Shown: positions 2,743 through 20,540 of the stretch, piece after piece
Position numbering within the stretch: position 1 is the stretch's first letter
Layout: every line of letters begins with the position of its first letter
Assembly (NCBI GenBank): GCA_944393605.1
Contig: CALYAO010000004.1
Span: forward strand, 62,001 to 126,000
Source: an uncultured Clostridia bacterium
GTDB lineage: Bacteria; Bacillota; Clostridia; UBA1381; UBA9506
DNA length: 64,000 nucleotides
Reading direction: 5' to 3'
Notes under the pieces: generated by a model
Database searches by the model: none
What the model was told of the DNA's origin: nothing
What the model saw: only the letters and a program-made list of their open reading frames with translations
Translations under genes and position numbers: made by a program

Positions 2743-2771
2743 TTGAAATTTCTCTTGTTGTCTTGTATAAT
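2743..2771 (+). promoter_or_regulatory. Sigma-A promoter of the LuxR-type regulator and probably its operon
   Basis: TTGAAA (2743-2748), 17 bases, TATAAT (2766-2771). It is followed by a roughly 105-base leader before the start codon at 2884. Confidence 0.75.
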
Positions 2772-2776
2772 AAAAG

Positions 2777-2794
2777 TGTTCGACATAACGAACA
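2777..2794. promoter_or_regulatory. Candidate operator, palindrome at the transcription start
   Basis: TGTTCG, six bases, CGAACA: a perfect 6-bp inverted repeat starting six bases after the -10 box, at the expected start of transcription. The placement suits a repressor or autoregulator. The half-site order is opposite to a Gram-positive LexA box (CGAAC...GTTCG). Confidence 0.5.
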
Positions 2795-2883
2795 AAAACA
2801 TTTTAACAAGAATAGATAAAAAAGTATACGGGCTTGCGAACAGTTGATAGCTGTGAAAAAACAGTCTGAGAAAGGGGTACTTG

Positions 2884-4083
2884 ATGGAATACATAACCGT
2901 GCGCGATGCGGCGCAAAAATGGAATATATCAGAGCGGTTGGTGCAGAAATACTGTGCGACGGGGCGCATTGCAGGCGCAAAAAAATTTGGGACTTCCTGG
3001 GTGATTCCCGCCGGGGCGGTAAAACCCAAAGACCCGCGCAAAGCGCAAAGGGCTCCCGCAATGCGACGGGAAAGGCGTCAGAGCGTTTCTTATCCGGGCC
3101 TGATGCCGCTGATGAATACCGCGTTTGAACCGGGCAGATGCCTGGAATTCATTCATGATATGGCAGACGACCCGCAAAAGCAGATTGCGCTGGCGGAATA
3201 TTATTATTTCAGCGGCCAGCCCGAAAAAGCGGTGCGCGAAACAGAGCTTTTTCTTACCGGCGCGGACAGGGACATCCAGCTTTCCGCCTGCTTGATCTAT
3301 GCATATGCAAATCTTTCCGTCGGCAAGATTCAACGGGCCAGATACGCGCTGACGGCGGTGCAGGAAATGCTTGCCTCTGTGTCGGAAAAGCAGCCCGAAA
3401 TGCGTGCGGCGCTGTCCTTTGTTTCATCGGCTGCAGCGGTGCTTCTGCACCTCCCTTTGCCGGAGAGATTGCCGCCTATGCAGGAATTCCTTCCCATGCT
3501 TCCCATGGGAATCCGAATGTTTGCATTGTATGTTAACGCACACTATACCTATCTGCAAAAGGAGTACCAAAAGAGCCTTGGCATTGTGGAGACGACCCTC
3601 GGTATGCAGACGGAAGAATACCCAATTCCTTCCATTTATCTGCATTTGGTTGCGGTTATGGATTATATGAGCTTGAAACAAAGGGACAAAGCAAAGCAGC
3701 ATCTGCTTGCGGCGTGGGAACTTGCCAAACCCGATGATCTCATAGAAGGATTCGGCGAACACCACGGGCTTTTGGGCGGAATGCTGGAGGCGGTTATCAA
3801 GCCGGAATATCCCGAGGATTTCAAACGGATCATCGCCATCACCTACCGGTTTTCCGCAGGGTGGCGCAGGATACATAATCCCGATACCGGGCATGACGTA
3901 GCGGATAACCTGACGACAACGGAGTTTGCCGCGTGTATGCTGGCTGCCCGCGGATGGACCAATCAGGAGATTGGCGATCATATGAACATCTCTGTGAATA
4001 CGGTAAAATGGCATATCACCAACGCCATGCAAAAACTGGGTATCGGAAGCAGGCAGGATTTAAAAAACTATATGCTGCTGTAA
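2884..4083 (+). CDS. LuxR-type regulator with an added N-terminal HTH
   Basis: A 399-aa transcription regulator. Residues 1-45 (EYITVRDAAQKWNISERLVQ, then KYCATGRIAGAKKFGTSW) form an excisionase/MerR-like winged helix-turn-helix. The middle, about 75-325, is helical and repetitive like tetratricopeptide repeats. The last 60 residues are a LuxR/GerE HTH (LTTTEFAACMLAARGWTNQE, then IGDHMNISVNTVKWHI). No receiver domain is present, so it is not a classical response regulator. The ATG at 2884 sits six bases after AAGGGG and is preferred to the TTG at 2881. It heads the surface-protein locus in the same direction and is the obvious candidate for its control. Its signal is unknown. Confidence 0.85.
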   Translation: MEYITVRDAAQKWNISERLVQKYCATGRIAGAKKFGTSWVIPAGAVKPKDPRKAQRAPAMRRERRQSVSYPGLMPLMNTAFEPGRCLEFIHDMADDPQKQIALAEYYYFSGQPEKAVRETELFLTGADRDIQLSACLIYAYANLSVGKIQRARYALTAVQEMLASVSEKQPEMRAALSFVSSAAAVLLHLPLPERLPPMQEFLPMLPMGIRMFALYVNAHYTYLQKEYQKSLGIVETTLGMQTEEYPIPSIYLHLVAVMDYMSLKQRDKAKQHLLAAWELAKPDDLIEGFGEHHGLLGGMLEAVIKPEYPEDFKRIIAITYRFSAGWRRIHNPDTGHDVADNLTTTEFAACMLAARGWTNQEIGDHMNISVNTVKWHITNAMQKLGIGSRQDLKNYMLL

Positions 4084-4085
4084 AG

Positions 4086-4122
4086 AAAAAGGATTCGGTT
4101 ATTCGGCCGGGTCCTTTTTTTA
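4086..4122 (+). terminator. Possible weak or attenuating terminator
   Basis: AAAGGA..CGG and CCGGGTCCTTT form an imperfect stem followed by a T-run, just after the stop of the regulator gene. It may reduce read-through into the next gene rather than block it. Confidence 0.45.
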
Positions 4123-4222
4123 TTACCCACCCATTTTTCCCCCTCGGGCGGGTGGTCTCAAACAGATGATTCCATGGTATGATAAAACAAATGATGAGCG
4201 AAACGGAAAGGAAGATGTGCGC

Positions 4223-4519
4223 ATGGAAAAGACAAAAAAGTATCATGTCGAAGGCGCAACGCTAACGATCCCGCTTCGGTATGATGAAACATCCGGCAGA
4301 TATATGGAAGTATACCCTGACTTCATTGAAAATCCGATATATACGCCGGAGGGTCACCCGATTATGCTGACGCTGGAAGATGCCTGTGCTTTCGGCGAAA
4401 AGAAGGACGCAAATGAAGGGCTGGTCGATTGCGGCTCCTGCCGGTTTTACCGGCAAGTGCAGAACACGTTGATCGGCGTGTGTGGGTGCGAAAAGAAACG
4501 AATAAATATCGTTGAATAA
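4223..4519 (+). CDS. Small cysteine-rich protein, function unknown
   Basis: A 98-aa soluble protein with no signal peptide. The N-terminal half includes LTIPLRYDETSGRYMEVYPD, and the C-terminal half has a cysteine set: one Cys in DACAFG, then CGSC, then CGC about 14 residues later. This resembles a small metal site or redox-active cysteines. I recognise no named family. The ATG at 4223 is preferred to one at 4166 because AAAGGAAG lies eight bases before it. It sits between the LuxR-type regulator and the giant exported proteins, 14 bases before the latter, so it is probably co-transcribed. A role in sensing or in folding/export of the surface proteins would be a guess. Confidence 0.7.
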   Translation: MEKTKKYHVEGATLTIPLRYDETSGRYMEVYPDFIENPIYTPEGHPIMLTLEDACAFGEKKDANEGLVDCGSCRFYRQVQNTLIGVCGCEKKRINIVE

Positions 4520-4533
4520 GGAGGAGAGAAAAC

Positions 4534-7500
4534 ATGAAAAGGCGCATTTTAACGTTGGTGCTGTGTGCTTGTATGGCATTTCAGCTAATGCCCGCTGTCG
4601 GCACAGTATATGCAGCGGGCGGGTATAACCCGAAACGCAATGATGATTTTGTGATTCCGGCGGCTCTCAGGAGCAACAGGGATTTTATGCTGGGTTCGAC
4701 GCTCAGAGGTACGCAGGCGAATTTCATTAACAAAATGGGCTTAAACGGCAACAGTATGTATAAGGATTTTGGTACAGACAAAAAAATAGAAATAAGCGAG
4801 GTGTCGAAGGAACTGAAAAATGCCGGTCAGCTCACATTTACCTTCGGCGCAAGAGTGCAAGACAGCTATGGCAACCTCTTTGCCGGCGATGTGGTAACAG
4901 ACGTATCCATCAACAACATACGTTGTTATCCAAAATACCGCGGTCTTAACGATTACGGAATGTATGCAGATGCAAACACCACATACTATATGGGGCGCGA
5001 TACGTTCCGGTTATATGCGGTGACATCGTCAAACGCAGATTGGCATACAAAGGCCACGCAGACAAAGGATCTGGCGATCTATCTGCTGGACGAAAAAGCG
5101 CCGACGGTCGAAAGCTGCGAAATTACGCAAAACGGCGAGAAAACGTCGGTTGTACAGCTCGGCTCCACCATTCAGTTTACGCTCAATTTCTCGGAATATA
5201 TCCGGTTTGCCGACGACTCGGCTTCCCATGAGCCAGGGCTGGAGTTTGAGATTTTGCCTTACGGCGAGATCGTAAGCGACCCCATCCGATTGAAAGCGGA
5301 TTTTGTGGAACTGTATGAGAACAAAATGGTGTTTGAATACACGTTTTTAGATGAATACAGCGGTCATGAGGGGATAAAGGAGTTCTATATTTCAAGGATC
5401 GAAAAGATAACGCAGCAGGAAGACTTTGACGCAAAATATAATCTTGCCATGGTGCCCAAAGAGATCGCCGACGCAGCAAAGGTTCCGGCTGTTACCGTCA
5501 ACAACCTTATCACAGACCTTGCGGGAAACGCTGCGGAAGAAATTTTGGCAACGAATGAGAGCGGCGTTTTAGGTGAGATGGAGGTTCCTTTCAACAGCGT
5601 TAAGATCGACTCCAAAATGCCGTCTGTCCAAGGCGTCGGCATAGAAAAAATGCGAATGTGGACTGTTGCGGATGAGGATGCTGGCCTGTACGCAAAAGTG
5701 GGCGACAAGATGAAGCTGAGCGTTTCCTTTGACGAGCCTGTGTATGCAGACGCGGGAAGCGTAACACTGACCCTTAACATAAAGGACAGTTCGGGTAAAG
5801 CGGTCACTGTAAAGAATGATTCGGATATTTCAAATGAGACAATCATGAGTTTTGAAGAGGTCGAGATAACGGAAGGCATGACATATACGGGCGATGCTGC
5901 TGCAGAGGGAAAGATAACGCCAGTTTCTATTGACGCATCCGAGGCTTTGGATTCCGCAAAAAACCCGTGCGGAGTACATAATTTGAAAGATGAAGGGATA
6001 TTTGCCAATCAGGATTTTGCGTTGGATACATTGGGACCCGCGATCGATCTCGGCAGTGAAGAGTTCGTTACGCCGATCCAACCTTTTGATGACAATGCTA
6101 TTTTCTGTGTGCCGCTGAATATTTATGATGATCAAAGCGATCCAAGCGTGGCCGACAGCGGCATTGATACCATGAGAGGCTATTTTTACCTGACAGGCTT
6201 TCCGATCAAGTATTCATATATATCGGGCCGAGGTGATGAAACGTTTTATGAAAAACAGCTCTTTTCGTATTATATATCGAATACCGTTATGACGGAGGAA
6301 GAGCTCAAAGACAAGTGGACCGAGGCGACCGTTCAATTTAATACAAGCGCACCGGACGACAGCGCATACTATTTTGATTTATTCAGCGGCGGCGACGGGC
6401 AGTACAACACTTACATATACATAAAAATAGGTGATGTTGAGATCACAAATCCCACCATACACCTGATGGCAGAGGATGTTGCCGGAAATAAAAATATTGT
6501 GTATAAGCAGGTTGATTTTACCTATGATACGACAAAACCCACATTTGACGGCGTAAGCGAAATAAGCGTATCGGCGAATGCCAACACCCCAGATACCTAT
6601 GATGTATCGTGCACGATAACGTGCAGCGACGAAAACGGGATCAATCCCGACACATTTAAAGTAACCGCTGACGGATTATTTGAAGATTACGGATTGGGTT
6701 CCCACGAAGATGTGAAAGTGGATATCACAAGTGATGGAGGTACAGAGGGTGGAAAAACGTATACGTTCACACTGGTGATGAGGGAGATTGGAAGAGACAC
6801 AGCAGCGGAATATAACATCACATATACGGTGCAGGACAATCATGAAAATGAAAATCAGATCACACAGCCGTTTTCGTATAACCTCACAAGCTTTCATCTG
6901 CTGAAATTTTCGACGGTCAAAAACGAGTACGGATATGTTCCATATATCAGTTTCCAAAAGATAACGGATGACCCGGGTTTTTCAGATAACGCAAAGACGA
7001 TACTTATGATAAAAGATCCGTATTCGACGGATAACGGGTATGCCGTAACGATAGTAGATAAGGATCTTTTGGCTTCGAATAATATTCTTGAGGATTCTTC
7101 GCTTGAGTGGGCTTATTATAAACGGAGCGACAATCCCAATACGGAAAAGGAAATACTCCTCGAGCCGGCTGCAGGCAGCACTGCTTTTATATCGGATCTG
7201 CTGTCGTCAGGGCTGGGATCATACTTCGGGGACGTATCCTATGCGCTGATCTCCGGAGACGGCATTGTGATCGAAGATTTTACAAACAGCGATCCGCTGC
7301 CGGTGCCTATCTCCATAGCGGAAGAGACCTTAAGGCTCGGCGGCCTGACAGACACCGTACAGGGTATATCGCTCGTCCCGGGCTTTGACCTTGAACCGGT
7401 CGATTGGGAATTTCACCCTATCGATGGCTGGGTGATGCCCGAAAGCGGCGAAGAGGGCCTGAAAACGTATAACATAGGTCTGGCGGGGAAATCAATCAGG

Positions 7501-10500
7501 GTAAAGCTTTCCTTGCCCGAAATAGACGGCCTTTCGTGGTCGGATTACGATACGGCATTGCTGAAACTGCGGTATCCCGTAGAAGGGGGCAATATCGCGT
7601 ATTATGATGACCCGCTTTGGCAAATACCGCTATCGCTAACGAGCGAGGAACAGATCATTGTCCTCCCCGAAACCCTTGACGAGGACTTCTTCAATGAAAG
7701 AAATGCTTTAAGATTTTATATCCAGGTGTTCATGAAGTCCGGAACGAACTTGACTTACGGGCTTTATGCAGAAGACGACGAAACCTTTGGCTGCTATAAT
7801 ACGCATGACGAAGGATATCTCAAAGCGGTTACACAAAATACAAACATAGAGGTAAAGGCGGGTGACGGCACTTCGCAATGGGTATCCCTGCCGCATACGC
7901 AGGAATTTACAAGCGCTAAGGAAACATCTCAGAATTACGGTGTGGCAAAGGCGATCCCCGTAACGCGCGGAACGCGCATTACGCTGGACTTTGAGCTTGA
8001 AGCGCAGACCGAATGGGTACGCGTATGGAATGAACAGAACGGCGAGACAAAGGACGAGGCGATCTGGACATACAATATATACGACTTTGAAGACCATCTT
8101 ACGGATGAGGCAGTTAATGTTGTCTATTATCAGACCTTCAGCAACCGTAACGGCCTCGGCGAGGTTCATACGCTGATCTTTAACGTCTATGACGAAGTGC
8201 CTACGCTTTCCGTAGGATTTACGCCGAGCGCGGACGAGGGCTATGCGGCAGAACGCAGATTGATTATCAGCGGAATGAGCGGCGGGGCCGGCGAGGAGCT
8301 CCCCATCAAGATGATCGATTCTGACGGGAATATCGTCGATTTCTCGCAGGACGAAGATGCGATCATACGGGATGAAAAATACAGGACATTCTATACGGTA
8401 AACAGCGCCGGCGGCGTTGCATACACCTCCGTAAAAGCCGAAAAGATAGACGCCGAAGCCCCTGTTGTCACCATTGACAGCCAGGACGGTTCTTCCCTTG
8501 GCATATCCGTAACGGATGACGTATTTGAGGAAGACCTGTCGAATATGGAGCTGTATCTCAGGTACGACGATGAGACCTACAGGGCGGCCCTGGAAGAATA
8601 TGGGCTTTTGACCGATGAAGAAGGGTTCTTTAAGGTCGAAGAGTTTTCACAGTCAGCGTTCGGTGTGCGTCCGGAAAATACCGCTATGGGCATATTGGAA
8701 TTCAGCGGTTCTATTTTTCCGGTAGAGGAACAGATCAATACATACTTGGCATTTACAGCTCCCACGGGGAGCGGCGGATACACAGGCGCAATATCCATGT
8801 ATGTTGTGGACCGTGTCGGACATCGGTCGGATACCGTCAAAACTGCACCGATGGATATTCCGGAAATCAAATTTACAGAGAATCGATTTATATACAACAG
8901 AGACAATACGCCGTTCGGAGAAGAGGGCAATATTATCATGCCTTATTATTCCGTTGATATGGAGAATCCGGCTGAAGTTACAGAACCGAGGCTCACGGAC
9001 AGGGGCATCAGAGGCGAAATCCATACGGATAATGTGTTCAGTTCGCTCTATGAGGCAGTGCCTGTCTATAAAGACGGCGAATACGCTCTTACGGTAAAAG
9101 ACCATTTCGGCGATGAACATGAGGTCACATATACCGTGCCGCCCGAAGCCTTCAGCGGCGACAGGCTGGATATATACGCTGTGAATGCCAAGGATGGAGA
9201 TAACGATATCGTCAATTTAAGTATCAAATCCATAGACGGCAATCGCTTTAAAGTGGAACTGCCCAGTGAAGCTGACTATAGTTATGAGGCAATGCAGGGA
9301 GCGATTATTGATCCTTCGATGAAGGCGGGTGAAGCGACCGTATGGCAGAGCGACGGCAGCGCCGGGGCTTTCGGCGAATTTTATACGGACGTAACGCTCA
9401 AAGTGACCAAAAACGGAACATTCAAGGTTCTTGTGCAAAACAACGATGGGCTGCTCACCGAATACTTGGTCAATGTTTACATCAACAGGGAGATTGCGGA
9501 GCTTGAAATGGAATGGAGCTTCCCCAACGGAGCATTCACGGACGAGAATGGTGAAACTTACACATATGACTATGCGACATTGGTTGTCAATACCGTTGAC
9601 CCCGCAAGGTCGTTGCTGGGAGAAAGCAGTTTCAACTTCACATACCATGATCCCATCGGAACAACAAAAACATTTACGGTGACAGATGACTACGGTTTCG
9701 TTCAGGAATGCATGGCCACACTCGATTTTGAGATACGGCAGTCCGAGCAGGAATACCTGACGCCTCCCGATATGACAGTATCGCTTTACGCGAATCGGAA
9801 TAACACATCGCAACTGATCGGAAGCATCAGCGAAAACGGAAGGTATCAGGACCTGGTGGATATGTACGGCGGCGCGATGCAGTACAGTATCACAACGTCA
9901 ACGCTTTCGCCGAACCGCGTAAAGACGGTGCTTCTGCCTTACGGCGAGGATACGTCGGGGATTACCTACGATACTGCGCAGAACGCGGTGATAGACGGCG
10001 TTGAGGTGGTCGGGGATATCTTCTGGATCAATAAGTCGGATGCCAGATTCTCGCTCGTCATGGTGGATGAAAAGAATCTCTTAAGTGAAAGGTTTGACTT
10101 TGACGGCGGATTTACCATAGACATAACGCCGCCGGTCATCGGTAATGTGAAGAAAACGGTAAAAGGATACAGTGTCCAGCTTGAGATACCCGTAACCGAT
10201 GATGTGAGCACCTTTGATGAGTTGACCGTCCTGAGTCCCGGCGGCGTCACAAGAGGGGACGACACATTCCTGTACACCGTTGGTCAGAACGGAAGCGTTG
10301 TATTTACGGTAAGTGACAAGTGCGGCAACTTCACGACACGGTCGATCTCCGTAGAGGAAATTGACGATACCAAGCCGGTGGCAAGACTTGTTGCGTATTC
10401 GCCGTCCTCCGATACCTCACAGGTTGTATTGCCCGAAATTGCAAATAGGGACATCGAAGCGTTCATTACGTTTAATAAAAATATCATGGATTTGTCGCTA

Positions 10501-11778
10501 GAGATTTTAAAAGACGGCGCATACACAGCTGTGACAGATGCCGATGGCGTTCGTATATCGAAAAACACCGAAAGCTCTGCCATTGTTACGTTCGCACAGG
10601 GTGCATCCGTAAGGGTGCAATACAAATCGCTGAACGGTCAAAGCGGAACGCCGCTTGAGATCAATATTCCAGACGGCATCATAGATAAGAGTGTGCCGCA
10701 TATTGTAACCGACGTGATATACAACCAGCGCGACGGAGCGAGCAAGCCGACCAGCGCAACGATCCGGGCATATGCCGATAATAAGACCATATTCTACGGC
10801 AGAGGCGCATATACAGAGGCAGAGCCGTTTGAGGAAACCGTATATGAAAATAATATTTACGAGTATGCATTCACGGATCATGTCGGAAACGTTGTGGAGG
10901 CAAAGGTCGATGTCAATGGGATCGATACCAAAAAGCTGGAGGTTTATGCGTATGATATACCGGAGCAGATCACGCCTTCGGGAGCGGCGTTCAAGCTTTC
11001 GGTCAACAAGCCCGCAGCCATCACTTTGCAAGAAGGGCTTACAACCAGCGACAGCCTTACCATAACAGAGACGGAAGGTGCCGTTCTGACGCTGACAGCG
11101 CAAAGCGCCGGATTCTATACAATAACAGTGACAGATGAAGCCGGAAACAGGGTGAACTGTTTCGTGTCAATCGCGGTCGGCGATTCCATGCCGCCTGTAA
11201 TCATGTCCGATTCAGACTATGTATATATACGCCAAGGCAGCGATATTGCAGGCGTTGATGACAGCATGCTCACAAGCGGCCTGCTTGTAACCGATGATCA
11301 ATCTGACGCGGAACACATCACGCTTATCGTTGACAGATCGAGCTTGCCGACAGATCTAGGCGCTATAGGCAACTACGCATATACGGTAACGGCAACTGAC
11401 GAAGCCGGAAATACGGCCGACATAAGGCGGTATCTGAGTGTTTACGCAAAGAATGCCACAGCGGTAGAAGTAGACGGTATCTTTACCAAGCACACGGGTG
11501 TTGTAACAACATCAAAGGGCGAACATACAATCAGCGTAAGTTTGCCAAACGACTCTGTTTTAGGGACAGCTTTTGAGCCGTATCAGGTATACTGCACAAA
11601 GGGTTTCTATACATTCGGTCAGATGAAGCCGTGGATGCTGCCTATGACGGCTGCCGGTGTAAAGGACGGCGTAAATGACGAATATAAGTACAACTTTGAG
11701 CAGGAAGGCTGGTATACGGTTTATGTACTGCGTCAGAACAGAGAGGCATTCTTGGTGCATGTACTGATTCAGGAATGA
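4534..11778 (+). CDS. Giant exported multi-domain (Ig-like/cadherin-like) surface protein
   Basis: A 2414-aa protein with a clear signal peptide (residues 1-27, cleavage after VYA). The rest is beta-rich and built from irregular Ig-like or bacterial-cadherin-like units, marked by recurring phrases such as DLAGNAAEE, DVAGNKNIV, DEAGNR and TVTATDEAGNTADI, and by inter-unit joints of the type D.TKP.. or DITPPVI. Acidic D/N pairs at the joints suggest calcium binding. No catalytic domain, SLH repeats, LPXTG motif or transmembrane tail is visible, so attachment must be indirect or the protein is released. AAGGAGGAG precedes the ATG. A 2183-aa SLH protein follows 31 bases after its stop. Base use appears A+T-richer than in the glycan locus. 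Likely roles are adhesion, surface layer or matrix; the sequence does not decide. Confidence 0.85.
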   Translation: MKRRILTLVLCACMAFQLMPAVGTVYAAGGYNPKRNDDFVIPAALRSNRDFMLGSTLRGTQANFINKMGLNGNSMYKDFGTDKKIEISEVSKELKNAGQLTFTFGARVQDSYGNLFAGDVVTDVSINNIRCYPKYRGLNDYGMYADANTTYYMGRDTFRLYAVTSSNADWHTKATQTKDLAIYLLDEKAPTVESCEITQNGEKTSVVQLGSTIQFTLNFSEYIRFADDSASHEPGLEFEILPYGEIVSDPIRLKADFVELYENKMVFEYTFLDEYSGHEGIKEFYISRIEKITQQEDFDAKYNLAMVPKEIADAAKVPAVTVNNLITDLAGNAAEEILATNESGVLGEMEVPFNSVKIDSKMPSVQGVGIEKMRMWTVADEDAGLYAKVGDKMKLSVSFDEPVYADAGSVTLTLNIKDSSGKAVTVKNDSDISNETIMSFEEVEITEGMTYTGDAAAEGKITPVSIDASEALDSAKNPCGVHNLKDEGIFANQDFALDTLGPAIDLGSEEFVTPIQPFDDNAIFCVPLNIYDDQSDPSVADSGIDTMRGYFYLTGFPIKYSYISGRGDETFYEKQLFSYYISNTVMTEEELKDKWTEATVQFNTSAPDDSAYYFDLFSGGDGQYNTYIYIKIGDVEITNPTIHLMAEDVAGNKNIVYKQVDFTYDTTKPTFDGVSEISVSANANTPDTYDVSCTITCSDENGINPDTFKVTADGLFEDYGLGSHEDVKVDITSDGGTEGGKTYTFTLVMREIGRDTAAEYNITYTVQDNHENENQITQPFSYNLTSFHLLKFSTVKNEYGYVPYISFQKITDDPGFSDNAKTILMIKDPYSTDNGYAVTIVDKDLLASNNILEDSSLEWAYYKRSDNPNTEKEILLEPAAGSTAFISDLLSSGLGSYFGDVSYALISGDGIVIEDFTNSDPLPVPISIAEETLRLGGLTDTVQGISLVPGFDLEPVDWEFHPIDGWVMPESGEEGLKTYNIGLAGKSIRVKLSLPEIDGLSWSDYDTALLKLRYPVEGGNIAYYDDPLWQIPLSLTSEEQIIVLPETLDEDFFNERNALRFYIQVFMKSGTNLTYGLYAEDDETFGCYNTHDEGYLKAVTQNTNIEVKAGDGTSQWVSLPHTQEFTSAKETSQNYGVAKAIPVTRGTRITLDFELEAQTEWVRVWNEQNGETKDEAIWTYNIYDFEDHLTDEAVNVVYYQTFSNRNGLGEVHTLIFNVYDEVPTLSVGFTPSADEGYAAERRLIISGMSGGAGEELPIKMIDSDGNIVDFSQDEDAIIRDEKYRTFYTVNSAGGVAYTSVKAEKIDAEAPVVTIDSQDGSSLGISVTDDVFEEDLSNMELYLRYDDETYRAALEEYGLLTDEEGFFKVEEFSQSAFGVRPENTAMGILEFSGSIFPVEEQINTYLAFTAPTGSGGYTGAISMYVVDRVGHRSDTVKTAPMDIPEIKFTENRFIYNRDNTPFGEEGNIIMPYYSVDMENPAEVTEPRLTDRGIRGEIHTDNVFSSLYEAVPVYKDGEYALTVKDHFGDEHEVTYTVPPEAFSGDRLDIYAVNAKDGDNDIVNLSIKSIDGNRFKVELPSEADYSYEAMQGAIIDPSMKAGEATVWQSDGSAGAFGEFYTDVTLKVTKNGTFKVLVQNNDGLLTEYLVNVYINREIAELEMEWSFPNGAFTDENGETYTYDYATLVVNTVDPARSLLGESSFNFTYHDPIGTTKTFTVTDDYGFVQECMATLDFEIRQSEQEYLTPPDMTVSLYANRNNTSQLIGSISENGRYQDLVDMYGGAMQYSITTSTLSPNRVKTVLLPYGEDTSGITYDTAQNAVIDGVEVVGDIFWINKSDARFSLVMVDEKNLLSERFDFDGGFTIDITPPVIGNVKKTVKGYSVQLEIPVTDDVSTFDELTVLSPGGVTRGDDTFLYTVGQNGSVVFTVSDKCGNFTTRSISVEEIDDTKPVARLVAYSPSSDTSQVVLPEIANRDIEAFITFNKNIMDLSLEILKDGAYTAVTDADGVRISKNTESSAIVTFAQGASVRVQYKSLNGQSGTPLEINIPDGIIDKSVPHIVTDVIYNQRDGASKPTSATIRAYADNKTIFYGRGAYTEAEPFEETVYENNIYEYAFTDHVGNVVEAKVDVNGIDTKKLEVYAYDIPEQITPSGAAFKLSVNKPAAITLQEGLTTSDSLTITETEGAVLTLTAQSAGFYTITVTDEAGNRVNCFVSIAVGDSMPPVIMSDSDYVYIRQGSDIAGVDDSMLTSGLLVTDDQSDAEHITLIVDRSSLPTDLGAIGNYAYTVTATDEAGNTADIRRYLSVYAKNATAVEVDGIFTKHTGVVTTSKGEHTISVSLPNDSVLGTAFEPYQVYCTKGFYTFGQMKPWMLPMTAAGVKDGVNDEYKYNFEQEGWYTVYVLRQNREAFLVHVLIQE

Positions 11779-11809
11779 AAAACTGTCCATACGGAGAGGA
11801 GGAGTAAAT

Positions 11810-14800
11810 ATGAAGAAATGTATATCGCTGATACTGTGCTTGCATCTAATGATGGGCATGATCATTCCTCTGACTGCATATGCAGACGGAGAAAGTGAAT
11901 ACAGCTTGATCAATGAAAATATTGAAGTCTACGTGTCTGCAGAAAACGGCGGTTTTGCAATCAAAACCGCCGAAGGCGACAAACTCAAAAAATCAGATAA
12001 TAATAAAGATTTATTGTATCATAATGGGGAATACGATACTTCCTTTACATCGTTTGAAGTGGAACGCGACGGAGAAAAGCGGGAGTATATATTCGGCGGG
12101 AGCTACGGTTTTTTGGGGTCTAGCAGTTCAGATGTGACGGTAACACAGCTTGCAGACAGCATACAAGCCGTTTGGAGCGTTGACGGTATTACATTCACGC
12201 AGACGATAGAAATACCGAATACGGCGAGCAATCAGCACGGCATGGTGGCGATTTCATATAAGGCTGAAGTGAAATCGGGAAGCCCTGCGAAAATCAAATC
12301 AAGAATTTTGTTCGATACATCACTTGGGAATCAGGATTATGCGTTTTATAACGCAAACGATAATCTTGGTTACGCTGTCACATATGAACGGGAAACGGAG
12401 CTTCTGGGCAGCGATTATTCTTCCGGCTATATTCCGGAGAGTATTTATGCGTCGGATAATGATGGCCTTTCGGGGACCGCGGCATATTCAATCAATACAT
12501 CGGCGTATAAAGCGGTTTTTGCCCATTGGAACAATCTCGCATCGACGGTATTTGAATACACACCCAATCCGGCGATGACATTTACAAATGCGAACAACAT
12601 TGAATATCAGACCGCAGACAGTGCTTATGCGATCTACAACGATTTGGGTGAAATCGCATTAAATGCAAGCGGAAGCGTAAGCTGCTACTACGGTGTGTAT
12701 TCCAACTACAATGTGGATGCTTCGGAGAGTGTGGCACTGAATGTCATCACGCCCAATTCGCTTGAACTTTCAGCGGATAGAAAAAGCTATCTCCCGGCAA
12801 GCGGCGCTGTTGGAAATGCGACATTCCCGGTCAATATCAATATGACGAACTTTTCATCCAATGATCTGCCCAAAATTGCAATTGCCGCATACACGACAAA
12901 CGGGATCACGCCGCTTGATATGGACGGAAATGAATTGGATTTTGAACCAAACAGTATGAATCCGTATTACGTGACATATGAAGGGTTTCAATCGGGCGAT
13001 GTCCTTGATTATATCTTCCAATTTAAGGCATCTGTCGGCGAATCCGCGACATACAGAAGAGTGGAACTCAGGGTTTACGATATCTCTGACGGGACGATGA
13101 CCTTCTCAAACGGAAACATGATTGGAAGCAAAAGTTTTAACATATTGTGTCCCGGCGGAGACGGCAACCTGCCTCAGGTGACATTTACGGGAGCAGACCC
13201 GGAAGTTCTGTATCACAAAGGCGGGAACCGATACATCATTACCGGAACGAATTTTTCCATGCTGACCAACCCGGCGCATTATTCTATTGTACTTGAGTCG
13301 GATGACGGACTGAGCAGCTATACCGTTGATCCGAATGATATTGTGATTGATGCAGAGGTCGGAACCATGACGCTGATTCTGCCGGAAGAATATGTGCCCG
13401 GCACGTATCACGTATATATCAACTGGAGGCAGTCGGCCTATGACAATGGGATCATAGATCCAAGCACGCCTTCTTCCTATACCTCCGAAGCACTCCGTCT
13501 TATCTTTTCCGAGGATCCGAAATACAAAAATAACGTATACGGGGTCGTTGCGGTTGTACAGGATAAGTCGTCTGCGCCAAATCAGGTGTATACCATCTTG
13601 AGCTTTAAAGATGAGGAAGCGTTTAACACATACAAACAGACAGATCAAACTTACAGTGAGATCCTTTTGGAGGTAAGAGGGGAATTTGAGGCTGTAACAG
13701 ACGGGCACGGGAACATGGTGCATCTTACTGGGACCTCGCAGTCTGGTTCTAGCGATGTGTATACCATCAACCAGTGTCTGGATTTTCAGGATGGGATCAT
13801 AGAGATCTATTATGAAAATGATGATATCAATGCAGCGAACAGAAAGATCAACGTTGACTTTGACGGGAAACTATATACGTCGGGCGAACGGACACATATC
13901 GCATCTGTGCCGGCTGCGCTGACCAGTATTGAAAACGGACAGGAATACGGCCTTTTGGAATACAACCTGCATGGCGAGAGAAAAAATGAGATGAATGTCA
14001 ACTATATTTCCCTGGTATGGGGCCATACGGGGCTGGATCTCGCACAGCAGATAGCAGGGTCGGTATTCCAGCTCGGGTTTGGGATCCTCGGCGTCATAAA
14101 GGACGACAACGGCAAAGCCGTCGGCAAAACCGTTTCGTTCACAGCGTCCTTTGACATCGGGTTTTTGATCCCGAACGGGCAGAAGTACAAGGACAACATG
14201 AAGTATGACGATGTATTTGACCGAATTTTAACGGCGTTTGATTTTAACGATTACTACCATCCGCGGGATCTGCGCGATCGCGCAAACGTCCTTTTCGGGA
14301 AGAACAACGACCTCACGGACGAGGATCGGTATATACAGTCGCAGCAGGCCGCGACAATGAATATTCTGGTGCGGGACGTTCTGTTTGCGTCTGTTCCGGC
14401 ACAAAGCGAAGGCGAAGAAGATTTGTGCGGATTCTATGGATTCCGTGCCGGCGCGGATATTGTGCTTCCGTCTTATACGGAAGCGATGCCGCAAATAAAG
14501 GCGCGCCTTGAAGTGAACACCATCAGAAATTACAGCTTCACGGTTGAAGGCGGATTGAAATTTGCAAACCTGGATTTCGGCGCTTCCCTTGAAGTGCTGA
14601 GCGTGGAGAATGAAATACCCGTCCCGAACAAATTGTTTGTCTATTGCAACCTTCCGGCAGGGGCACTGGGCTTTTTCCTGGATCCGGCAGGGGCTGTGAT
14701 CATAACAGGCGGTGGCGGCGGATTTGACAACCTGTATGAAACCATTATGGTGCGCGATAAGCTCCCGACATTGCAGCTTATGCTCCGGCTTTACATCAAG

Positions 14801-17800
14801 GTGATCCAGGTATTGTCATGCCAGGCGGACGGAATGTTTAGCCTGCAGGGGGTAAGCCTCTCCATGTCAGACCTGCGGCTTGACTCTGTCCCCAACTCGC
14901 CGCCCGTTATTCCATATGCGGGGCTGAAGCTTCAGTGGCTGCCGACCTGGTATTTCCACGTCGCCATCAACGTAGACCTGTTCCAGATCCTGACAGGCGG
15001 AGGCTATATCGTTGTTGATCAAAAGGAGAACGACGATGTATTCTTTGAAGCGTTCGCAAAAGTCATGGTAAGGATCCCGGACTATGTGGGGCTTATCGGC
15101 GGAATTGACATTGCGGGTGCTTCGGTAGGAATTAGTACCGATAAGGTATGGGGCAGTGTGGAAGTCATAGGCGTAGGTCTTGGCATTGTCTATTATTGGG
15201 GAGATGAAGACAGCTTTGACTTCGGCATTGGCGTCGGCAGTGCGGAACCGACGTATCCGGAATTGGTCCCGTCACTTGCAGGGCTCGAACCCGTGCTTTT
15301 AGGATATGATGAAAAAGCGGGCAAGAATGTCTACATGAAGATTGGTACGAATATTCGGCCCGGAGCACAAGCTGAGCTTGTTTCAGATTTGAATGCGGCG
15401 CCTGTTCTTTTAGGCGAATCCTCCGTTCAGTCCCTTGACACAAGAATGCAGCACAAGGTGACAATCGGCGGAGATTCAGATGAAATCATGACGTTTGTTT
15501 ATCCGGCACAGAGCCTGGAGCATGCGCAGGAGCTGTATTCACAGATGAGCGGCCTCCCGGCCATCAAGATGTACCCTGATGCGGATGCAAATGCAAACCT
15601 CACATTCAATGAGGAAACGGGGATGGCAACACTGGCTGTCACATCAAGCGAGGGCACAAATGCAACATACAATATCACGACGCCTGTTGCGACAGATATC
15701 ACCATCTTGAGCGTTGCGCCTATACCCGAGGTAAGTACGGTTACGGCGTCAAGCAGTGATGGCAAGATCAATGTGTCATACAGTGGCACAAACGTAAGCG
15801 CGCTTGATAAGATCAGTTTTTATCTGGCAAAAGAGCAGACGGTATCCGAAAACAGCACGGACAGCGATATGCTGTTGGGCGTGTATACGGATCCTTCGGA
15901 GATTTCTTCGGGAACGGCATCGTTTGATATCCCGAAAGGGCTGCAAAGCGGAGATTATTATGTGAGAGCCGTATATTCGCAGGAAAATGTCGTAAGCAAT
16001 GATATTGCTACAACCAATACGCTTTCATATGTCAATCCGAATGAGCCGCAGGCCGCTGATATCCTATCCTATGAAAACGCAGGGGATTATTGCCTGGCGG
16101 CGGTTCTGGGCGATATGCCTGACGAGGTGTCGGGATATATTGTAAATGTATACAACGAAGATGGAAGCATAACGGATTTTGTGGGCGTGGAAATTCCAAA
16201 GGCAAGCATAGAGGACAACAAACTGATCGTAGGCGGAAGATTTGATACGCCCGTTTATGACGAAGAAGGAAATGTTGTGGAAGGTGAGACTGCCCAGGTT
16301 GGCTTGGAGCCTGGCAAAAGATATCAAATCGGCGTAAGCCCATACTATGAAGAGGCCGCAGATGCCGGTTCGTACCGTGTGATTGGAAAAGAAGTCATAG
16401 GCGATGCGGTTACGCTGAACGCCCCTACCCCAGCAAACATATCCGTATCATCCGACAAAGGCGGAACGCTTTTGAACGATGGAACTGTCACATTTACAGT
16501 CTCAGCGGATGAAAAGCTTACGGGTGTCTGGAGCATAGCCAATGGATACGAAGAAGGCAGAGAAGGTTATTATGGCGAATTTACAGATGCCGACACCATA
16601 ACGATTCCGCTGACGGATCTTCCGGACAACGATTATGTGCTTGAAATATGGGGCAGCGACGAAACAAATGATTCGTTCTCGCACAATCATACGTTCACGG
16701 TCGATACAACCGAACCGCGCCTCATTGTAAGCTCGCCCATCAACGGTTCCCTGTTCGGCGAAGACGGAAAGCTTACTGTAACCGGTATCACGGATCTTGA
16801 CACATATATCACGGTCGAAATAGACGGCACCGTTACAGCGGATCATGTGCCGTTCAGCGACTTCCATGCAGATATGGATGAGAATGGCTGCTTCCGTTTT
16901 GATTTAATGATCGACCAGAGCGTTTCGACCCATGACATAAAAATAACGTCAACGGACGCGGCCGGAAACGCTTCTGTGCATGAGGCAAAGGTAAACCATG
17001 CGGGCCTCAGCAAGGTGAATCATGTTGACGTTTATTATAACGGCGTGCTGTATTCAAACAAGAACATCAGTACATTGGGCGATACGAATGAAGGTCAGCT
17101 CAGCCTCGTGGCCGAAACGCCCACAGGAAGCTTTACCATTAACGACGATATTGTTCATTGGTCCGTAAATCCTGTAACAGGAAATGCGACGGTTGATGAA
17201 AACGGAAAGATCACATTGGATCAGCAAAGCGAAGGTTATGTAGTGGGCCAATTCCAGGTTACAAGCGTTGCACCGATGACAGCGAGCGCAACATTCGGAG
17301 CGCTTGAAAACACATCGGGCAATATTGTGGTAGTGGGTTCGACCGTCGGCGGGACGGCGACGGGCGCAGGCGAGTATGCGCCGGGCGATACGGTTACATT
17401 AACCGCACAAGCCGAAAACGGATATCAATTCTCCCATTGGGAACTGGACGGTGTGACCGTGGAAGATACGTCAAGTGCCACCATTGAATTTATCATGCCG
17501 AATGCCATCGTGCATGCAACCGCGCACTTTAAGACGAGCAACAGCGGCCGTCCGAGCGGCGGCTCAGGCGGCGGCCGCCCGGTGATCACCATAACAGATG
17601 CTATCGCAACGATCCATGCAGAGGAAGGCGAACACGTTGAATATCAGCTGACAGAACCCATTGACCATGAAAATCATATCGTTGCACAATACAGCACAGA
17701 TGGTGGAACCACATACATAACCGTTGCCAAGTCTGCTGTCATAGACGGCGTGTTTCAGTTCATTGCCCCTGTCAGCGCACAGTACAGGATCGTCACTGTC

Positions 17801-18361
17801 GACGGGACCGGGTTTTATGATGTGACGGAATCAAGTTGGGCATATGACTATGTGGATTTCGCATCCATCAGGGAGATTGTACTCGGCGTGGGAGATAATC
17901 TGTTTGAACCGGATGGCAGTCTTACAAGAGCAATGTTTGTCACGATGCTCGGCAGGATGCATGGCAATTTGGGCGCCTATGACAAGCACAGCTTTACTGA
18001 CGTTGCGGCGGGCTCATGGTATGAGGAATATGTCTCGTGGGCATTACACAATGGTATTGTCGAAGGATATGATGCGGAGCATTTTGCGCCCGACGATCAG
18101 ATCACCCGGGAACAGATTTGCGCAATGATAGACCGTTATATGAAGTATGAAGGGTATCATGCAGCGGCTGAAACTGTGGACACATTCACGGATGATGCAT
18201 TGATAAGTGATTGGGCCTATGACGCTGTAGCGGCTGCTCAAACCCTTGGAATCGTAGTCGGATATGCGGATGGAAGTTTCAGGCCGCAGGGTTTTGCGAC
18301 ACGCGCGGAGGCCGCGACAATGTTTACAAGATTGATCTACACGTTGTTGACGAATCGATAA
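11810..18361 (+). CDS. Giant SLH-anchored surface protein
   Basis: A 2183-aa exported protein. A signal peptide covers residues 1-25 (cleavage near TAYA). The first 800 residues are beta-rich; residues about 900-1200 form a glycine- and hydrophobic-rich region I cannot assign; Ig-like units follow (for example the segment beginning VDTTEPRLIVSSPING). Near 1837-1912 is an InlB-type repeat with GEYAPGDTVTLTAQAENGY and FSHWELDG. A Gly/Ser-rich linker around 1913 leads to three SLH repeats (about 2004-2183), the usual non-covalent anchor to pyruvylated wall polymers. GGAGGAG precedes the ATG. It lies between the 2414-aa protein and an SLH protease and probably shares their mRNA. The exact function is unknown. 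Confidence 0.87.
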   Translation: MKKCISLILCLHLMMGMIIPLTAYADGESEYSLINENIEVYVSAENGGFAIKTAEGDKLKKSDNNKDLLYHNGEYDTSFTSFEVERDGEKREYIFGGSYGFLGSSSSDVTVTQLADSIQAVWSVDGITFTQTIEIPNTASNQHGMVAISYKAEVKSGSPAKIKSRILFDTSLGNQDYAFYNANDNLGYAVTYERETELLGSDYSSGYIPESIYASDNDGLSGTAAYSINTSAYKAVFAHWNNLASTVFEYTPNPAMTFTNANNIEYQTADSAYAIYNDLGEIALNASGSVSCYYGVYSNYNVDASESVALNVITPNSLELSADRKSYLPASGAVGNATFPVNINMTNFSSNDLPKIAIAAYTTNGITPLDMDGNELDFEPNSMNPYYVTYEGFQSGDVLDYIFQFKASVGESATYRRVELRVYDISDGTMTFSNGNMIGSKSFNILCPGGDGNLPQVTFTGADPEVLYHKGGNRYIITGTNFSMLTNPAHYSIVLESDDGLSSYTVDPNDIVIDAEVGTMTLILPEEYVPGTYHVYINWRQSAYDNGIIDPSTPSSYTSEALRLIFSEDPKYKNNVYGVVAVVQDKSSAPNQVYTILSFKDEEAFNTYKQTDQTYSEILLEVRGEFEAVTDGHGNMVHLTGTSQSGSSDVYTINQCLDFQDGIIEIYYENDDINAANRKINVDFDGKLYTSGERTHIASVPAALTSIENGQEYGLLEYNLHGERKNEMNVNYISLVWGHTGLDLAQQIAGSVFQLGFGILGVIKDDNGKAVGKTVSFTASFDIGFLIPNGQKYKDNMKYDDVFDRILTAFDFNDYYHPRDLRDRANVLFGKNNDLTDEDRYIQSQQAATMNILVRDVLFASVPAQSEGEEDLCGFYGFRAGADIVLPSYTEAMPQIKARLEVNTIRNYSFTVEGGLKFANLDFGASLEVLSVENEIPVPNKLFVYCNLPAGALGFFLDPAGAVIITGGGGGFDNLYETIMVRDKLPTLQLMLRLYIKVIQVLSCQADGMFSLQGVSLSMSDLRLDSVPNSPPVIPYAGLKLQWLPTWYFHVAINVDLFQILTGGGYIVVDQKENDDVFFEAFAKVMVRIPDYVGLIGGIDIAGASVGISTDKVWGSVEVIGVGLGIVYYWGDEDSFDFGIGVGSAEPTYPELVPSLAGLEPVLLGYDEKAGKNVYMKIGTNIRPGAQAELVSDLNAAPVLLGESSVQSLDTRMQHKVTIGGDSDEIMTFVYPAQSLEHAQELYSQMSGLPAIKMYPDADANANLTFNEETGMATLAVTSSEGTNATYNITTPVATDITILSVAPIPEVSTVTASSSDGKINVSYSGTNVSALDKISFYLAKEQTVSENSTDSDMLLGVYTDPSEISSGTASFDIPKGLQSGDYYVRAVYSQENVVSNDIATTNTLSYVNPNEPQAADILSYENAGDYCLAAVLGDMPDEVSGYIVNVYNEDGSITDFVGVEIPKASIEDNKLIVGGRFDTPVYDEEGNVVEGETAQVGLEPGKRYQIGVSPYYEEAADAGSYRVIGKEVIGDAVTLNAPTPANISVSSDKGGTLLNDGTVTFTVSADEKLTGVWSIANGYEEGREGYYGEFTDADTITIPLTDLPDNDYVLEIWGSDETNDSFSHNHTFTVDTTEPRLIVSSPINGSLFGEDGKLTVTGITDLDTYITVEIDGTVTADHVPFSDFHADMDENGCFRFDLMIDQSVSTHDIKITSTDAAGNASVHEAKVNHAGLSKVNHVDVYYNGVLYSNKNISTLGDTNEGQLSLVAETPTGSFTINDDIVHWSVNPVTGNATVDENGKITLDQQSEGYVVGQFQVTSVAPMTASATFGALENTSGNIVVVGSTVGGTATGAGEYAPGDTVTLTAQAENGYQFSHWELDGVTVEDTSSATIEFIMPNAIVHATAHFKTSNSGRPSGGSGGGRPVITITDAIATIHAEEGEHVEYQLTEPIDHENHIVAQYSTDGGTTYITVAKSAVIDGVFQFIAPVSAQYRIVTVDGTGFYDVTESSWAYDYVDFASIREIVLGVGDNLFEPDGSLTRAMFVTMLGRMHGNLGAYDKHSFTDVAAGSWYEEYVSWALHNGIVEGYDAEHFAPDDQITREQICAMIDRYMKYEGYHAAAETVDTFTDDALISDWAYDAVAAAQTLGIVVGYADGSFRPQGFATRAEAATMFTRLIYTLLTNR

Positions 18362-18365
18362 GGAT

Positions 18366-19778
18366 ATGAAAAAAATAATCGTCATCATATCGTTGATATT
18401 TGTTTTCTTTACAGAGGCGGCATATGCCGCTTCTGTAAAGATCGGCGTGATTGATACCGGTGTAAAAGAAAAGGAAGGCATTTTAGACAGTGAAAAAATA
18501 CGCAGCGGCAAAAATTATGTTTTGGACAGCAGTGACACCGATGACGAGGTCGGACATGGAACGAGGGTGGCGAGCCTTATTACCGGCACAGTGGACGGCA
18601 GCATTGTCTCACCGTGCAGCGAAAGTGTGATCGTGCCACTTGTATATTATACAAAGCTGGCCTCGGGCGTTGCCCTGAACGGAGGGATTGAATCCATCTG
18701 TAATGCGATATACGATGCGGTGGATAGATACGATTGCCAAATTATCAATATAAGCAGCGGAATAACGGCAAGTGATGAGCGCTTGAAAAAAGCTGTGGAT
18801 TACGCGGAGGAACAAGGCGTATTGGTCGTGTCGGCCTGCGGCAACAGCGGTGATGCGGTGTATTATCCTGCCGCGTATGATACGGTGATCGGGGTGGGGA
18901 GCCACAACAAGGAATTTGAGCCGTCAGACTTCTCCTGCCAAGGGAGCGGACTGGATATGCTTATGTACGGCGAAGACCTGAAAGTGGTCTCCATAAAAAA
19001 CGCTGCCGATTACGAACGGATAAGCGGGACCTCCTATTCAACAGCTTTGATCACTGCTCATGCGGCAGCGGCGCTTGAACAATACCCGCATCTTACGCCG
19101 TCTCAAATCAGATATCTTATGAGAGTCAGCTGTGACGATATCTGTGCGGCCGGATATGATGAAAAAAGCGGATATGGTGTGTTTAATGCCGACCGGTTTT
19201 ATGAGAATCTCAGGCTGTTTGATCATGGTGAAATCCTTTGCTTTTATGATGTCAGAGATGGCGACTGGTATTATGACAGCGTGCGGAAAGCATACCATCA
19301 AGGGTGGATGAACGGTACAGGCGATGGGATATTCGACCCGGACGGCGATATGACACGCGGGATGTTTGTCACCATACTTTACAGAGCCGAAGGACAGCCG
19401 CAGATAAACCATGTATTGCCATTTGATGATGTGGATGAAAACGCGTATTATGCTGAGGCTGTCAGCTGGGCATCGGAGCATGGAATCATTGCAGGGTATT
19501 CCGATACGGCATTTTTGCCGGAGCAGAATATCACCCGTGAGGAAATGGCGGCAGTCATGAGCCGCTATGCGGACTCCAAGGGCATCAACACTGACAGCCA
19601 AGGGGACCTGACAGCATTTGCCGATGCAAACGCTGTTGCCGGCTGGGCAAGGGAAACGATGAGCTGGGCAGTTGGAGCCGGACTGATTTCCGGCAAAGGC
19701 GATGGTATACTCGATCCCTTGGGCAGCACTACCCGTGCCGAGGCCGCGGAGATTTTGCACAGATTTTTAGAAAACTAA
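18366..19778 (+). CDS. S8 subtilisin-like serine protease with three SLH repeats
   Basis: A 470-aa exported peptidase. After a signal peptide (1-21) the catalytic domain starts almost at once: D30 in IGVIDTG, H64 in GHGTRVA, oxyanion N160 in SACGNSGD and nucleophile S223 in SGTSYST. All four key residues are present, so it should be active. Residues about 295-470 are three SLH repeats anchoring it to the wall. Unusually, no I9-type propeptide lies between the signal peptide and the catalytic Asp. The start is four bases after the preceding stop with only AAGG two bases upstream, suggesting translational coupling. Co-expression with two giant surface proteins makes them candidate substrates for maturation or shedding. 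Confidence 0.92.
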   Translation: MKKIIVIISLIFVFFTEAAYAASVKIGVIDTGVKEKEGILDSEKIRSGKNYVLDSSDTDDEVGHGTRVASLITGTVDGSIVSPCSESVIVPLVYYTKLASGVALNGGIESICNAIYDAVDRYDCQIINISSGITASDERLKKAVDYAEEQGVLVVSACGNSGDAVYYPAAYDTVIGVGSHNKEFEPSDFSCQGSGLDMLMYGEDLKVVSIKNAADYERISGTSYSTALITAHAAAALEQYPHLTPSQIRYLMRVSCDDICAAGYDEKSGYGVFNADRFYENLRLFDHGEILCFYDVRDGDWYYDSVRKAYHQGWMNGTGDGIFDPDGDMTRGMFVTILYRAEGQPQINHVLPFDDVDENAYYAEAVSWASEHGIIAGYSDTAFLPEQNITREEMAAVMSRYADSKGINTDSQGDLTAFADANAVAGWARETMSWAVGAGLISGKGDGILDPLGSTTRAEAAEILHRFLEN

Positions 19779-19813
19779 TATGTTTTCCCAAAGGAAAGCA
19801 AGTATGTACGGCA

Positions 19814-19857
19814 GCTGCCCGGTGAAGGGGATATCCTTTTCGCCGGGCGGCTTTTTT
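19814..19857 (+). terminator. Rho-independent terminator of the surface-protein operon
   Basis: GCTGCCCGG pairs with CCGGGCGGC and is followed by six T, 36 bases after the protease stop. It marks the end of the locus. Confidence 0.85.
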
Positions 19858-20540
19858 AGCATGAAGTCGTAGGATGCCCTTCCCTATTTTTCCTTTCAAT
19901 GTCGCTGGTTTTGCAGGCATCGCAAGACTCTTCCATTTGGGTGAAGAAACGTAAGAAAATTAGAAAGCAATGTTTAACGGTTGGAATACATACATTACCA
20001 TGCGGGGTTTGGCCTTTGAAACCCGCATACAATAAGGGTTTGCATTCCTCTCAATGGTCACGATATCTCCCTTAAAAATTTGTAAATGAAATATCGTTTT
20101 CAAACAAAGAAATAAGCATACCACTTCACAAAGCAGGATGCGTATTTCTTTGCACCAACCGCTTTGACAGCCTGTTTCAACCTTACGGCTGTTGCCCAGG
20201 GCTGTCTATTGTGGCGTTTTTTTGCAACCAAGCCGACTCCCGGCGATGCTTCCCAGGTGCTCCCTCTCTCGCCCAGAAGGTTGCCGCACGCCCTGTCCCT
20301 CCTGCGAAGCATGTGCCCACGGAAGCAGCAAAAGGCCTGCTGCGGGACAGCCAAAGCCCGCGATGTCACCAACCGTATCACACAGATCCAGCAAGCTTGT
20401 ATATCTCGGCCGCTGCGCATCGCGTCTGCCGGGACCATCCTTGCTTGATCGCCGCATGAACGCCATAACACCTTACGCCAGGGCACCATTGCCGAAAATT
20501 GTAAATTTTTGGGATCTGCGCACTGCCCCGTTTTGGGCCA
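19858..20540. other. Gene-poor stretch with structured-looking GC-rich core
   Basis: No convincing protein gene. Positions 19999-20027 hold a hairpin (ATGCGGG...CCCGCAT). From 20160 to 20470 the DNA is GC-rich with local inverted repeats (for example GACAGCC/GGGCTGTC and CCCGCAGCA/TGCTGC). I checked by eye for SRP RNA, RNase P RNA, tmRNA and 6S RNA signatures; none of the first three is present and I could not place 6S. The open frames here (minus 20100-20489, minus 20206-20466) lack a start context and any family resemblance. Confidence 0.4.
20105..20152. repeat. 48-base inverted repeat with perfect 10-bp ends
   Basis: CAAAGAAATA (20105-20114) and TATTTCTTTG (20143-20152) pair perfectly; after one mismatch GCAT/ATGC extends the stem. 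No T-run follows. It borders the unassigned GC-rich stretch. Confidence 0.6.

Follow-up and report, generated by a model that had tools for sequence, protein, structure and literature searches.

A pair of giant exported proteins, G1 and G2, was found to recur across the Bacillota, and sequence comparison indicated that this pair is the core of a module in which a regulator (R), a small cysteine-rich protein (C) and a subtilisin are optional. The G1-G2 two-giant family is a class defined in this analysis by a G2 core and an adjacent upstream G1 with a GQMK...GWYT C-terminus, and the pair in the window has both features. The window is a stretch of 64,000 nucleotides from a Clostridia genome (2.5 Mb in 97 contigs) and contains a five-gene form of the module, a cassette in which the order is R, C, G1, G2 and a subtilase with SLH repeats (S8-SLH). 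On balance, we consider it probable that this cassette is a transferred surface-display module in which R activates C-G1-G2-S8, the two giants form an assembly and an interchangeable accessory protease acts on that assembly. R, produced from its own transcript, would switch on a second promoter that serves the other four genes. G1, which consists of Ig-like domains and has no anchor, would be co-secreted with G2, which has SLH anchors and a supersandwich head of a glycan-binding-like type. The two would form one surface assembly, in which G2 probably holds G1 through the conserved C-terminal GQMK/GWYT domain. Placed in the same wall layer by its SLH anchor, the subtilase would then mature or release the assembly, a role that in other lineages may be filled by C11 or S1 peptidases. 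Gene content, conserved order and pairing, the signals of the second unit, transfer of the cassette and the recurrence of peptidase neighbours were computed; the physical association of G1 with G2, activation by R and cleavage of G1 or G2 are inferred.

The five genes lie on one strand with intergenic gaps of 139, 14, 31 and 4 bases, and the open reading frame coordinates agreed with those in the first-pass annotation. Its proposal that these genes form a real conserved unit was borne out, since the five-gene order is repeated in three other loci (L004, L005 and L008) and the same genes, minus parts lost at contig ends, are present in L003, L006 and L007. A profile of the G2 core was used to search 391 Clostridia genomes, 95 genomes of the order and 151 genomes of a Paenibacillaceae-like family with genomes of 5 to 8 Mb, which is probably the Paenibacillaceae. 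G2 proteins were detected in 30, 17 and 36 of these genomes, respectively. G1 was located directly upstream of G2 in nearly all of the Bacillota loci examined in which the upstream side was present, including those of the Paenibacillaceae-like family, with a spacing that ranged from an overlap of a few bases to ~113 bp. Locus L221, considered as another type of pair with an S8 gene between the giants, was rejected, as its upstream giant belongs to the LRR_5 proteins and is not G1; it is the exception in the locus set to the order of G1 before G2.

The genes accompanying the pair were variable. An R-C-G1-G2 arrangement lacking S8 was present in L215 and L216, R-G1-G2-S8 in L213 and G1-G2-S8 in L214, where the R side lies beyond the contig. 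The gene 3' of G2 encodes S8-SLH in L213 and L214, as it does in the cassette, and S8 alone in L069. TetR-like genes preceded G1 in L071 (a near-cut-off Pfam TetR match) and in L072, L220 and L225 (sequence resemblance), and response regulators were found in L068 (confirmed by Pfam) and in L212 and L078 (sequence resemblance). In L064, a clostripain (C11) gene ends 8 bp before G1, and C11 was also detected in L196 and L226, with SLH in the latter. A Trypsin_2 (S1) gene preceded G1 in L198, L223, L229 to L232, L234 and L242. S1 was also located before G1 in L079, from a Clostridia genome, with one gene between. A sortase beside L066 was not counted, as its score of 19.9 bits fell short of the cut-off (26.6). 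No recognised neighbouring protease was found for the pairs in L065, L071 to L075, L212, L215, L216 and L220. The number of such pairs indicated that a dedicated neighbour is not required, and a distant protease could serve in its place.

These data bore in two ways on the earlier suggestion that the protease acts on the giants. The idea of the subtilisin as a universal or essential partner was rejected, given the many protease-free pairs and the R-C-G1-G2 loci that lack S8. The link itself was strengthened by the presence of S8, C11 and S1 beside the pair in separate lineages, as the recruitment of unrelated peptidases to the same pair provides independent support for a protease serving the giants. 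For ~30 loci with four slots each and ~2,400 genes per genome, ~0.4 adjacent peptidases would be expected by chance and about five lineages with one were observed, a rough, indicative comparison in which C11 and S1 were assumed to be about as numerous as S8. Even so, the recurrence backs the earlier suggestion more strongly than one locus by itself. A different reading is that the giants form an assembly and the protease is only co-regulated, its job being the digestion of proteins from the diet, the host or competitors, or general surface turnover. Subtilisins are usually degradative enzymes, some genomes have up to seven of them (49 to 50 S8 matches in 22 genomes, ~2 per genome) and pairs exist without S8, as in L215 and L216, all of which speak for a separate job. 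We nevertheless regard this as rather unlikely because separate lineages have non-homologous peptidases next to this pair and because the SLH anchors put S8-SLH into the same layer as the giants' assembly. A protease acting on the two-giant assembly, as an exchangeable accessory, remained our preferred reading. An extension of it, in which the pair would be a hitherto undescribed, phylum-wide two-protein surface machine of the Bacillota with assembly or release triggered by a dedicated but exchangeable endopeptidase (subtilisin, clostripain or trypsin-like), a subtilisin version spreading as a cassette among gut families and exchangeable recognition segments in G1, is put forward tentatively and falls somewhat short of probable. 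Paired surface proteins of >2,000 aa across the Bacillota, with varied recruited protease families, point to a common surface machine that is unstudied.

The protease (positions 18366 to 19778; all features of the cassette are on the + strand) has 470 aa and three C-terminal SLH repeats. A Pfam match of 121 bits to PF00082 identified it as a subtilase (MEROPS S8), and the catalytic D, H and S triad and the oxyanion N were intact in 8/8 aligned copies of S8-SLH. It is the sole S8 protein in the window genome. An inhibitory propeptide of the I9 type is typical of subtilases, although not universal. No N-terminal I9-type propeptide was detected in S8-SLH, whose S8 domain begins at residue 20 to 23, right after the signal peptide, so that activity is not certain. 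Among NCBIfam models, the S8 domain best matched that of the type VII secretion mycosins (TIGR03921), with a score of 149.8 bits that is below the equivalog cut-off of 278.75. Mycosins are likewise not known to have a classical inhibitory propeptide. They differ in having a membrane anchor where S8-SLH has SLH repeats, and there are no ESX genes in the locus. The match to dentilisin PrtP (NF033595) was 56 bits, far below the equivalog cut-off of 300.

A literature search detected no named system composed of these genes, a result that is not proof of absence, and the two-giant module is apparently undescribed as well as widespread. It is of a kind that is already known, that of protease-associated surface filaments. 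In Tetrabrachion of the Staphylothermus marinus S-layer, the precursor of the filament is the proposed substrate of the subtilisin-family protease STABLE (PMC5744192). Compared by description, both systems combine a large beta-rich surface filament with a subtilisin-family protease, but Tetrabrachion is archaeal with a coiled-coil stalk and a stalk-bound protease, whereas the cassette encodes two giants and a protease anchored through SLH repeats of its own. The dentilisin operon of Treponema denticola, prcB-prcA-prtP, likewise combines surface proteins with an S8 protease, and PrtP-dependent cleavage of PrcA has been documented (PMC8167434). Dentilisin differs in consisting of outer-membrane lipoproteins with a 70-kDa partner and a PrtP prepropeptide, as opposed to two proteins of >2,000 aa, SLH repeats and no propeptide. 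An SLH-bearing subtilase is in itself a known architecture, an example being NP_624131.1 of Thermoanaerobacter tengcongensis (PMC2605481); that protein also has Big_2, and the passage on it mentions no two-giant locus.

G1 (positions 4534 to 11778) is an exported protein of 2,414 aa that was characterised by alignment and AlphaFold2 modelling as a string of Ig-like domains without an anchor, and no SLH repeats were detected in it by Pfam. The C-terminal domain with the GQMK...GWYT signature is common to G1 and its relatives in alignments. A model of the final 568 residues consisted of a chain of Ig-like domains (pLDDT of 84) and matched titin, cadherins and the S-layer proteins SbsB and EA1. 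The central part of G1 (about residues 500 to 1300) is allelic. The G1 of the window had 50 to 60% identity to other copies over much of residues 700 to 1300, while its ends mostly retained ~75 to 95%, and the other copies had mostly 80 to 95% identity to each other along their length. This pattern is consistent with an exposed segment that has been exchanged or has changed rapidly in the G1 of the window.

G2 (positions 11810 to 18361) is an exported protein of 2,183 aa with Flg_new_2, three SLH repeats and a conserved core. AlphaFold2 model matches suggested a supersandwich-like domain at the N-terminus. The model of the core was poor (mean pLDDT of 63.5), and its best matches were to sugar-mutarotase-like supersandwich domains of GH94 enzymes, aldose epimerases and YidC; binding of a glycan by this head is a lead from modelling and not proof. 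The core had no match in a PDB sequence search, and Foldseek of the model against viral proteins gave no usable match. Many of the weak phylum-wide matches to G2 involved the N-terminal 300 aa alone. This segment of ~300 aa is common to separate secreted proteins of ~680 aa in L118, L120, L122, L124 and ~90 other genomes, some of which by eye have a cohesin-like C-terminus, and it is also present in an Rhs-like protein (L136). The three SLH repeats in each of G2 and S8-SLH scored above the Pfam cut-off, and this homology predicts wall anchoring for both. The window genome itself is rich in SLH, with an unusually high number (~77) of distinct open frames carrying the repeat, so the adjacency of another SLH enzyme is by itself weak evidence. 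In the Paenibacillaceae-like C11-type locus L226, a further SLH protein (17831 to 19444) has a 4-bp overlap with the end of G2.

C (positions 4223 to 4519) is a non-exported, Cys-rich protein of 98 aa with a CxxC...CxC pattern, and its family had no match in Pfam, NCBIfam or PHROGs. Homologues of C are situated before G1 in L215 and L216 (46%) and in L074 (43%). An alternative open reading frame of 117 aa from position 4166 was disfavoured because its start would fall upstream of a conserved -10 element described below.

R (positions 2884 to 4083) is a two-headed regulator of 399 aa in which Pfam detected, above the cut-off, an N-terminal HTH_17 domain and a C-terminal GerE/LuxR HTH, with a TPR-like middle. 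The latter HTH had a score of 49.2 bits against a cut-off of 23.5 for PF00196, which places R among the LuxR/GerE proteins. Pfam detected no autoinducer-binding or receiver domain, so by domain content R is not a quorum-sensing LuxR. The start was set at the ATG at 2884, as a TTG at 2881 is not conserved. Resemblance of the N-terminal HTH to excisionases (PHROGs) is consistent with HTH_17 and was discounted as evidence of mobility. The identity of R to its homologues was 88 to 90% in L004, L005 and L008, 79% in L213 and 53% in L215, and was 63% over the C-terminal part in L066.

The promoter of R (TTGAAA-17-TATAAT; 2743 to 2771) matches the consensus at 11/12 positions and is kept in L004, L005 and L008. 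Just 3' of the -10 lies an inverted repeat, TGTTCG-N6-CGAACA (2777 to 2794), whose TTCG...CGAA bases are retained in L004 and L005 with one half changed in L008; it is a possible autoregulatory operator of R. A strong intrinsic terminator with a 17-bp hairpin and a U tract separates R from the rest of the cassette (4084 to 4121; -20.6 kcal/mol, z of -4.4, 0/200 shuffles). Pairing is largely kept in L004, L005 and L008 through compensating or wobble changes, and an unrelated hairpin with a T tract is found at the same place in L213 and L066. A simple terminator scanner did not list this hairpin, probably because its T tract is taken up into the stem. Downstream of the hairpin comes a dyad, CCACCC-N17-GGGTGG (4127 to 4155), which is kept in L004, L005, L008 and L213 and has an altered form in L215 and L216. 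The dyad occurs once in the 2.5-Mb genome, in comparison to no occurrences of a reversed control pattern. Next is an extended -10, TGGTATGAT (4175 to 4183; consensus TGnTATRAT), which has no good -35 and is conserved in four cassettes and L213, the relatives having TGnTATAAT; these features suggest an activator-type promoter for C-G1-G2-S8. This unit ends at a terminator with an 18-bp stem and a T tract (19813 to 19858; z of -4.6). An Rfam search of the window gave no match.

Conservation of a terminator, a dyad and an extended -10 between R and C pointed to R being a separate transcription unit, most likely transcribed apart from C-G1-G2-S8. The first-pass annotation had proposed a lone promoter ahead of the genes, a lone terminator behind them and a single transcript; the front promoter and the end terminator do exist, but they are not the sole such signals and the single transcript was not upheld. 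A single operon from 2778 to 19857, in which R is co-transcribed and the protease is indispensable as the fifth member, would account for the common strand, the fixed order in all cassette copies and the strong signals at both ends. We regard it as very improbable in view of the conserved signals between R and C and the absence of S8 from L215 and L216. Control of the locus by the LuxR-type protein, also suggested earlier, gained support from conservation of the dyad and promoter beside the R gene, and the R homologues in L213 and L215 are accompanied by the CCACCC-N17-GGGTGG dyad or a variant of it. We propose this dyad as an operator to which R would bind, with R probably activating the second promoter.

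Close copies of the cassette were found in records of uncultured Clostridia and of Candidatus Ornithomonoglobus, a genus name that appears in a chicken-gut metagenome study (PMC8035907). G2 had 84 to 91% amino acid identity between hosts with RpoB identities of 69 to 73%, and at fourfold-degenerate sites the same pairs had 59 to 69% identity for G2 versus 25 to 32% for rpoB. Within Ornithomonoglobus (L006 and L007), the corresponding values were 65% and 52%. Flanking genes were non-homologous in every cassette copy but L007 and L008. The G2 tree, in which the window and L003 were nested among copies from another family, conflicts with RpoB, and the GC3 was 0.53 versus 0.77 for rpoB in the window genome. 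No close copy was found in 19 other genomes of the window's GTDB family. Overall, these comparisons indicated that the five-gene cassette has moved horizontally between distantly related gut bacteria. L213 and L214, the nearest outgroup compared, have the same S8-SLH and come from one family (f2), which is therefore the likely donor lineage; two f2 genera contain both types, with different species having either the cassette type (L004 and L005) or the L213/L214 type (41% identical). The cassette shows that large surface assemblies can pass between distant gut Clostridia, and a near-identical 17-kb module in hosts of different families is a natural experiment in which one can test directly what the module does, how it is anchored and what the protease contributes.

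The carriers of the cassette are metagenome-assembled genomes. Misbinning is unlikely for L003, since its contig carries metG, the genome's only strong MetRS match, along with a gene for a class I tRNA synthetase and genes that resemble pst, rnf and prmC in sequence. A chance neighbourhood of surface genes, with the apparent transfer due to misbinned contigs, could draw on the ~77 SLH frames and on the nature of the carriers but is scarcely credible given the same order across genera with unrelated flanks, the G1-G2 pairing across the Bacillota, which already contradicts it, the housekeeping genes on the L003 contig and the seven separate assemblies.

Among the five genes, Pfam detected no recombinase, and there was no convincing terminal repeat or target duplication at the cassette ends. 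Searches of plasmids (DNA, near mode) and of viral contigs gave no match, so carriage by a plasmid or phage was not supported. A 9-mer, TTTAGCATG, at 2701 and 19855 was rejected as a target-site duplication; it is within chance (~0.25 expected), and its right copy falls inside DNA homologous to L003. Homology to the other copies starts at ~2730 to 2740, near the R promoter, and stops at the final terminator in comparison with L008 but runs on to ~19976 with L003. To the left of the cassette, a frame-broken stretch on the minus strand (1795 to 2434) resembles by eye the C-terminal part of a large serine recombinase; a recombinase relic was discounted, as the piece tested had no recombinase match in Pfam. 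A DDE transposase remnant lies just right of the cassette in L003 (13999 to 14592, minus strand), and no similar sequence was detected to the right of the cassette in the window. Two related genomes have in common a 41-bp element that lies on one side of the cassette in L007 (5120 to 5160) and, inverted, on the other side in L008 (1455 to 1495).
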